A stretch of 64,000 bases of DNA from an uncultured Actinomycetes bacterium. GTDB lineage: Bacteria; Actinomycetota; Acidimicrobiia; Acidimicrobiales; SZUA-35. How positions within the stretch are numbered: the first letter of the stretch is position 1; each line of letters starts with the position of its first letter. Positions 26,557 to 28,089 of the stretch are shown here, piece by piece. A program made the translations under genes and the position numbers. The DNA is taken from the NCBI GenBank assembly GCA_902826025.1, contig CADEDH010000003.1:91777-155776 (forward strand), read 5' to 3'. The notes under the pieces were generated by a model that did not search any database, was not told the origin of the DNA, and worked only from the letters and a program-made list of their open reading frames with translations.

Positions 26557-28089
26557 TCAAGTGGGGCCGGCCAGCCCGGCGGCCAGCCGTTCGGCCACCG
26601 CCAGCACCACCAGCATGGGGTTGGCGTTGGGGACCCGGGGCAGCACCGACGCATCGGCCACCGTGAGGCCGTCGACCCCGGCCACGGCGCCGGCCAGGTC
26701 GACGGCGACGCCCAGCGGCAGGCTGGACGCCGGGTGACGAACCGGCCCGGGATGGTCGGCCAACCACCGGTCGATGGCGTCGTCGTCGAGCTGGGTCAGA
26801 TGGGCGGCCGGGGTGCCGGCGTCGTCGGCGAAGACCCCGGTGGCCACCGGGTCGAAGGCACCGTCGGCGGCCAGCGAGACCAGGTGGCGGACACCGGCCC
26901 GGAACCGGGCCCGATCGAGGGGATGGCCGAGCCAGCCGGGAGCGACGGTGACGCCGCCGCCCTGCCCGGGCGCCACGTCGAGGCGGCCCACGGCGGCCAC
27001 GTCGGTCAGCACCAGAACCAAGGCGCCGTAGTGGGCACCCTCGGGACCCGGGCCGACGTGGTCCATGCCCAGCGCCATGAGGTCGGCCGGTAGCTCCCCG
27101 CCCCCACCGGCTCCACCGTCGGGCTCGATGCCGCTCGACCAGCGGACCAGGCCGGAGATGGCGGGCCGGGGTCGATCGTCGACCCGGTCGGCGGCCGGCC
27201 GGCGGGCGACGGTGAGCACGTACGACGGATGGTCGGTGACGGGCCAGGGGCCGGGCGACCCGATCCCGGAAGCGGCCAGCAGGGCCGGGGTCCGGAGCGC
27301 ACCTCCGCACACGACCACCCGGTCGGCACCGATCAGCGAGCCATCGGCCAGGACCACCCCGGTCACCCGACCCCGGTCGTGGGCCAGGCGGGCCACGGTG
27401 GTGTCGCTCACCACCTCTATCTCTGACACGCCCATCTCTGACGCGCCGTCCCGCTCCGGCCCTCCGGGCGTCAGAGATCCCAGGGCCGACGGATCGAGGT
27501 AGGCGTCGGCGGCCGAGCGTCGCCGACCGTGGCGAGCGGTGAGCGAGGCGGTGAGCACGCCGGTGGCGTCGAGGGCCACGCTGGGGCCACCCGGCCGGTG
27601 CCCGGCAGCGACCGCCGCCGCGGCCAGAGCTGACGCCACGGGTCCCGGCTCCACCTCGGTGATCCCCACGGTGGCCGCCGCCCTGGTGAGCCACGGCTCC
27701 ATCGCCGCTCCGTCCCAGCCCGGGCAGCCCCGGTGGGCGGCCCAGCGGTCGTAGTCGGCCCGGTCTCCGGCCGTCACCACCATGGCGTTGATGGCGGAGC
27801 CGCCACCCAGCCCCCGTCCGGAGCGGTAGGCCAGCCGCCGGCCGACGCCGGTGACGGCCTCGATCGTGTCGTCGAACCGGTCGGGGCGGGCCAGGGCGCC
27901 GGTGGCGTCGAGCGACGACAGCGCCGGATCGTCGGATCGGCCCGGGCCGGCTTCAACCAGCACCACCCGGGCCCCGGCAGCGGCCAGGCGGCCGGCCACT
28001 ACGGCCCCGGCCGTTCCGCCGCCGACCACGACGACGTCGGCTCCCGCCGTCCGGTGTCCGGTACCGCCACCGGTGACACCCTGGGACAT
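26557..28089 (-). CDS. GMC-family FAD oxidoreductase
   Basis: A 510-residue glucose-methanol-choline-type flavoenzyme that oxidises an alcohol. The FAD motif [20 protein letters not shown] lies near residue 18, [20 protein letters not shown] is the FAD signature, and [20 protein letters not shown] is signature 2. HPASSLPLG and the terminal [20 protein letters not shown] complete the family set. Between the helix ending DPSALG and the strand [11 protein letters not shown] is an extra segment of about 20 residues ([20 protein letters not shown]), encoded by a palindromic repeat. Some relatives work with mycofactocin (MftG), but no mycofactocin genes are here. Confidence 0.88.
27434..27478. repeat. 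In-frame palindromic repeat inside the GMC gene
   Basis: Perfect 11-base arms ATCTCTGACGC (27434-27444) and GCGTCAGAGAT (27468-27478) enclose 23 bases beginning GCCGTCCCG. The element matches the intergenic copy at 44878-44926 through TCTGACG, CGTCCCG and CCGGG blocks. The left arm is partly duplicated just before it (ATCTCTGAC). It is read as protein on the minus strand without breaking the frame. Confidence 0.75.

Follow-up and report, generated by a model that had tools for sequence, protein, structure and literature searches.

The window, by which we mean the whole 64,000-nucleotide stretch of DNA that was analyzed, contains a gene for a GMC oxidoreductase with a palindromic repeat in its coding sequence. 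A second copy of this repeat, two copies of another repeat of the same design and a gene for a protein with similarity to AbiEi and to nucleases lie elsewhere in the window:

22438..23316, plus strand: homolog of the AbiEi-like, putative nuclease protein described below (DUF559 domain; weak AbiEi_4 match; 33% identical to the gene flanked by family 3)
26557..28089, minus strand: GMC oxidoreductase gene, 510 aa, reading frame intact (GMC_oxred_N, 2.7e-25; GMC_oxred_C, 5.7e-17)
27419..27433, no strand assigned: 15-bp tandem repeat ATCTCTGACACGCCC, adjoining ATCTCTGACGCGCCG at 27434-27448
27421..27477, minus strand: 57-nt insert in the GMC gene coding for 19 residues, S205-E223 (codons numbered from the start of the gene)
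27433..27479, no strand assigned: family-1 element in the GMC gene, a 47-bp dimer of inverted half-sites of ~23 bp
44879..44925, no strand assigned: second family-1 element of the window, at a gene 3' end
55152..55199, no strand assigned: family-2 element with tips TCTCGGTGC...GCACCGAGA (core 55154-55197)
55211..55258, no strand assigned: the other family-2 element, in tandem with the first at a distance of 59 bp (core 55213-55256)

A preliminary description of this DNA had noted a 45-base palindrome with perfect 11-base arms inside the GMC coding sequence, encoding roughly 20 extra residues between two conserved elements of the enzyme. The arms (ATCTCTGACGC/GCGTCAGAGAT, 27434-27478) are present as described and the palindrome is real, but the true unit is 47 bp, its outer bases being conserved too (the outermost left base of this particular copy is C, not G). 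The insert is likewise real, with a length of 19 residues that includes the 15-bp tandem repeat, which carries an extra half tip (additional TCTGAC at 27422). These 57 nt are absent from a syntenic ortholog in a genome of the same genus, which is 75% identical to the window gene at the DNA level and has the same neighboring gene: the ortholog reads AYLVGVGPELVVRSG where the window protein has AYLDPSALG, the 19 extra residues and then IEVVSD. Among the other GMC homologs, the insert site corresponds to loops that vary in length and are unrelated in sequence. The site was located by aligning the protein with 4udp, a solved enzyme (a single-sequence model of the GMC protein was useless, pLDDT 33); this alignment agrees with the placement between conserved elements and assigns the insert to a loop region. 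The variability of these loops, together with the 4udp alignment, indicates that the insertion fell in a tolerant loop.

The consensus of this repeat, hereafter family 1, is GAWCTCTGAC-N27-GTCAGAGWTC, in which the outer bases GAWC...GWTC are conserved besides the inner tip. When the whole 6.87 Mb genome was searched with this pattern (≤3 mismatches), 63 dispersed copies were found, compared to 0 for a control pattern, and 49/63 are exact (counted from match rows); the palindrome therefore has many further copies and is apparently mobile, as had been proposed. Of the two outcomes that the preliminary description had named as refuting its reading, the same 20 residues in distant GMC homologs without the palindrome or a genome lacking further copies, neither was obtained. 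The copy that had been noted near 44880 is among them. Of the sequence blocks said to be shared by the two window copies, the TCTGAC tips are indeed conserved, but CGTCCCG and CCGGG fall in the variable interior. The association of the two tips is far from random: the window has two matches to TCTGAC-N{10,40}-GTCAGA (0.08 expected), and 59 pairs of TCTGAC and GTCAGA lie 15-40 bases apart genome-wide (control, 1), with a spacing of exactly 27 bases in 55/59. Those of the four remaining pairs that are readable resemble chance or overlap a genuine copy, and solo half tips occur at chance level. The exact family-1 pattern was found in none of the 84,980 GTDB species (r220 genomes) searched and in none of the IMG/VR viral contigs searched, and family 1 is not above background in the same-genus genome or the other relatives examined.

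While the tips of family 1 are near-invariant, the interior varies among copies as much as if each base had been drawn independently at the frequencies of its column (observed mean pairwise identity, 0.455; expected, 0.468). Folding is strong (z about -3 to -5), opposite interior positions of the two halves show no covariation, A/A and T/T mismatches are tolerated within the tip pairing, and chimeric elements made by swapping halves between copies have barely altered folding energy. Additionally, the distances between neighboring copies are ~60, 71, 82 and 93 bp, a ladder with steps of about one helical turn, and the spacers between them are unrelated. The fixed length, the non-covarying interior and the helical ladder argue for a protein-binding site in duplex DNA with fixed geometry, rather than for an RNA hairpin. 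A search for target-site duplications showed no offset or length that stands out, and the interior bears no trace of the recent copying that an active element should show. This saturated interior suggests an old spread of family 1, with selection acting on its tips ever since.

To describe where the copies lie, genes were called with a simple codon-usage script, so the placement counts are approximate. For 46 distinct family-1 copies, 23 were assigned to convergent, 17 to codirectional and four to divergent spacers, and two to the interior of genes. The proportion of intergenic copies lying between convergent genes (23/44) is well above the 15% of spacers that are of this type (p = 3e-8), 35/40 copies lie ≤20 bp from a gene 3' end, and the TGA of the tip provides the stop codon for 11/63 adjacent gene ends. 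The GMC copy is thus exceptional within its family, as 44/46 copies examined lie outside genes. Across all families, a few copies are found in frame inside genes: besides the GMC gene, these comprise an MMPL-like transporter (locus L194, 10611-13001, minus strand) with two in-frame family-2 elements (YLGAPHAIGGALRTEN, FLGAPRTAGGALRTEI), two other long reading frames and the C-terminal tail of an AbiEi-like gene, all of which were named by reading, without a profile search.

Unbiased screening of 860 kb of the host genome for octamers that face their own complement at a fixed spacing recovered family 1 and two further families, bringing the total for the genome to at least three. Family 2 (GWTCTCGGTGC-N26-GCACCGAGAWC) has 16 copies in the genome, and its tandem pair in the window lies between a plus-strand gene and an SDR-like gene. 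Family 3 (GAWCTGTGGCG-N25-CGCCACAGWTC) is of fixed length in 48/49 pattern matches; being more uniform, it looks younger than family 1, a dating that we infer from this difference. The outer GWWCT is common to all three families, each of which has a fixed length. In the same-genus genome (G001), families 2 and 3 are at background level and a de novo search of 313 kb yielded no comparable family; a pattern search for other GWWCTC-tagged families with a different seventh base likewise gave background levels.

Two genes of the host genome are closely flanked by elements on both sides, one (C40) by family 1 and the other (C1) by family 3. Both match AbiEi profiles, and they are 70% identical to each other, with identity of 58% over residues 9-60 (the DNA-binding part) and 78% over residues 181-307. 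Their neighbors were read by eye as genes other than an AbiEii nucleotidyltransferase toxin. No cognate gene for family 2 was found among the homologs examined. Ten matches to the flanked genes lie in the host genome, and 47/61 genomes contain some. The named relatives of the associated gene, from a collection scan with a closer set of six sequences, are Acidimicrobiales/Acidimicrobiia MAGs, which places the host in the class Acidimicrobiia. Around these homologs we observed dimers of 46-53 bp, often on both sides, with tips specific to the gene (GAACTGGCAC, GATTGGTGGA, CAACTGGAGG, GATTGGTGTG, AAACTGGCAGC and others). Under strict criteria, dimers with the same tip lie on both sides of 12/48 homolog loci in the order (11/47 distinct genes, as one G038 gene was counted twice), compared to 0/3800 random placements, and dimer density at homolog loci is 1.77 vs 0.23 per kb. 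At the strict threshold, dimers are absent from 22/48 loci, so the flanking arrangement is not found in every member.

In G038, a relative assembled as a single contig, each of five AbiEi-like genes has its own dimer family and four are flanked on both sides; two of the five private families are also present at distances of hundreds of kilobases. At two places in G038 that are far from each other (L290, 18431/18502; L303, 4285/4356), CGTTCTGGTCT dimers are paired at a distance of 71 bp, which is a spacing also seen in the genome of the window. G038 also has 33-bp units, CGCCGGCGCCT, arrayed in tandem (L288, 6020-6185) and apparently unrelated to the dimers. The homolog in the window (22438-23316) has no clear flanking dimers; a degenerate dimer-like stretch, CGACCTGCGTCGCGA...TCGCGTCACGGTTCG, was seen upstream of it at 22205-22255, by eye only. 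The only homolog found in the same-genus genome (L241; G001 C544) has an in-frame stop, as would be expected if that genome had lost the system.

The protein was modeled with AlphaFold2 using a homolog from an Acidimicrobiales MAG (L273; pLDDT 82.6). Foldseek matched the larger part of this model to Streptococcus agalactiae AbiEi (6y8q, E 1.2e-6) and to Rv2827c, and the C-terminal domain to the catalytic domain of I-Bth0305I (3r3p; TM-score 0.73 on target, E ~0.01) as well as to Vsr and AbaSI, with weak E-values and good target coverage. Residues D239, P243, E250, R254 and H257 are invariant in the homolog alignment, and Pfam DUF559 is matched in more distant members, including the window homolog. 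As modeled, the protein resembles an AbiEi-type winged-helix part joined to a predicted catalytic part of the EDxHD/Vsr-like (I-Bth0305I) type.

We consider it probable that the elements are non-autonomous and REPIN-like, each one a pair of putative binding sites for its cognate AbiEi-nuclease. The palindrome would then consist of two inverted half-sites of ~23 bp recognized in duplex DNA by a dedicated DNA-binding nuclease, whose gene would be placed between copies of its own dimer. The nuclease domain would drive spread of the dimer by cutting DNA, and the extra dimers would spread genome-wide, mostly to positions a few bases after stop codons, and occasionally enter coding sequence, provided that the reading frame is not interrupted; the GMC copy would be such a case. 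That an AbiEi-like protein may recognize the dimers is supported by association and by analogy. AbiEi binds two 23-bp inverted repeats, located 3 bp apart, cooperatively as two monomers (PMC7319586); two such repeats and the gap come to about 47-49 bp, which matches the element size (46-53 bp), and the non-covarying half interiors and tolerated A/T mismatches are as expected for duplex binding. Mobilization of the dimers by DNA cutting is what we infer. Against the proposal stand the target-site duplications that were looked for and not found, the weak Foldseek E-values of the nuclease part, the 22/48 loci without dimers at the strict threshold, the lack of a cognate gene for family 2 among the homologs examined and the family-1 interior with no trace of recent copying.

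These observations point to a very small mobile element of a kind not yet described, built around an unstudied AbiEi/homing-endonuclease-like protein, and nothing relevant on AbiEi, DUF559 or EDxHD together with palindromic repeats was found in the open literature. A broader reading, to which we give an even chance, is that an AbiEi-derived DNA-binding domain joined to a homing-type nuclease mobilizes its own operator. Acidimicrobiia would then contain minimal mobile elements of a new class, which have operator dimers with a private tip per gene and arose independently as an analog of the RAYT-REPIN system. Solitary AbiEi-like/DUF559 genes, which are common and unexplained, would gain a candidate partner and a testable mechanism. 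If the proposal is true, REPIN-like populations can arise around an unrelated protein and the RAYT system is not unique. The private tips would also represent natural protein-DNA specificity pairs, directly testable as such.

Several other explanations were weighed against this proposal. The dimers could be operators only, bound by an AbiEi-like repressor, with the dispersed copies representing a regulon or chromosome-organizing sites maintained by selection after passive or ancient spread. AbiEi and Rv2827c bind inverted repeats and act as autorepressors (PMC7319586), the near-invariant tips and saturated interior look as if every site were selected, and the helical spacing between neighboring copies would fit as well. 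However, the copies follow stop codons rather than occupying promoters, dimers are present on both sides of the gene, insertions into coding sequence, that in the GMC gene included, require a copying mechanism, and the predicted nuclease domain would be left unexplained, making this reading rather unlikely. The strong folding and the location at gene ends, often convergent, would suit RNA hairpins that act as transcription terminators or mRNA stabilizers, but a terminator needs no fixed length, chimeric halves fold nearly as well as native ones and some copies lie inside coding genes. We dropped this hairpin or terminator reading, which now seems extremely unlikely, as covariation is absent and the Rfam search gave no match; extended pairing of the flanks was also dropped, the flanks being no more complementary than those of chimeras. 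Inverted terminal repeats and dispersed copies would speak for an ordinary MITE that belongs to a DDE transposon and has terminal repeats of 10 bp. This reading has hardly any probability given that no target-site duplication was found, that half tips are at chance level, that no longer element with such ends was seen except the AbiEi-nuclease unit, and that decayed MITEs do not usually combine a fixed length with so varied an interior.

The elements could also be classical REPs or REPINs moved by a RAYT (Y1 HUH transposase) that has disappeared or is encoded in the few percent missing from the assembly. Their dimer layout, 3'-end location, supplied stop codons and in-frame insertions match published REPs (PMC3733652, PMC3116915), and RAYTs are present in some relatives, one of them, in the same order, flanked by hairpins containing GGTCAGACC. 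Nevertheless, PF01797 and NF047646 had no match in the 96%-complete genome, with positive controls, and PF01797 is likewise without a match in the same-genus genome. The outer bases in all three families are GAWC/GWTC, neither GTAG nor CGTC, and the gene flanked by copies, repeatedly in other genomes, is AbiEi-like. We regard a RAYT origin as decidedly unlikely.

The proposed AbiEi-nuclease system can be compared to several that are already known. Like the operators of S. agalactiae AbiEi and M. tuberculosis Rv2827c, the dimers consist of a pair of 23-bp repeats in inverted orientation, with a gap of a few bases, beside an abiEi-like gene; unlike them, they are dispersed in many copies and flank a solitary gene on either side. 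This gene has an extra C-terminal nuclease-like domain and, for the two cognate genes as read by eye, no toxin partner was noticed beside it. The predicted catalytic domain may correspond in fold and D/E/H motif to that of the EDxHD homing endonuclease I-Bth0305I (E ~0.01), but here this domain is fused to an AbiEi-type DNA-binding part and is associated with a small repeat family, not an intron or intein. Rickettsia palindromic elements, to which the preliminary description had likened the GMC repeat, are also palindromic repeats retained in frame in proteins. No sequence link is known, and the connection is not supported: most copies here are intergenic at 3' ends, the exact family is absent from the other genomes searched, and the repeat goes with a nuclease-like gene. 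Nor are in-frame palindromic repeats rare outside Rickettsia, as had been stated, given that in-frame insertion of REPs and REP dimers has been published (PMC3733652, PMC3116915) and that, in several species, REPs and their dimers within genes code for 20-30 residues (PMC3733652).

The closest likeness in behavior is to REPIN-RAYT systems, with which these elements share a layout of inverted dimers whose ends are conserved and whose center varies, tens of dispersed copies near gene 3' ends, copies flanking the cognate gene, supplied stop codons and occasional in-frame insertion. They differ in that the outer GWWCT replaces GTAG or CGTC, that no RAYT was found, that the cognate protein is AbiEi-like with a predicted EDxHD-type nuclease domain, and that the evidence favors duplex recognition. 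As two defining features, the tag and the RAYT gene, were not found in the 96%-complete genome, we do not file the elements as RAYT-REP, although they would work alike. In an order-level relative (G059, locus L107), a RAYT gene is flanked by AGGGGTCAGACCCC-N12-GGGGTCTGACCCCT hairpins at about 1187-1228 and 1941-1980; these hairpins are a separate RAYT-type repeat.
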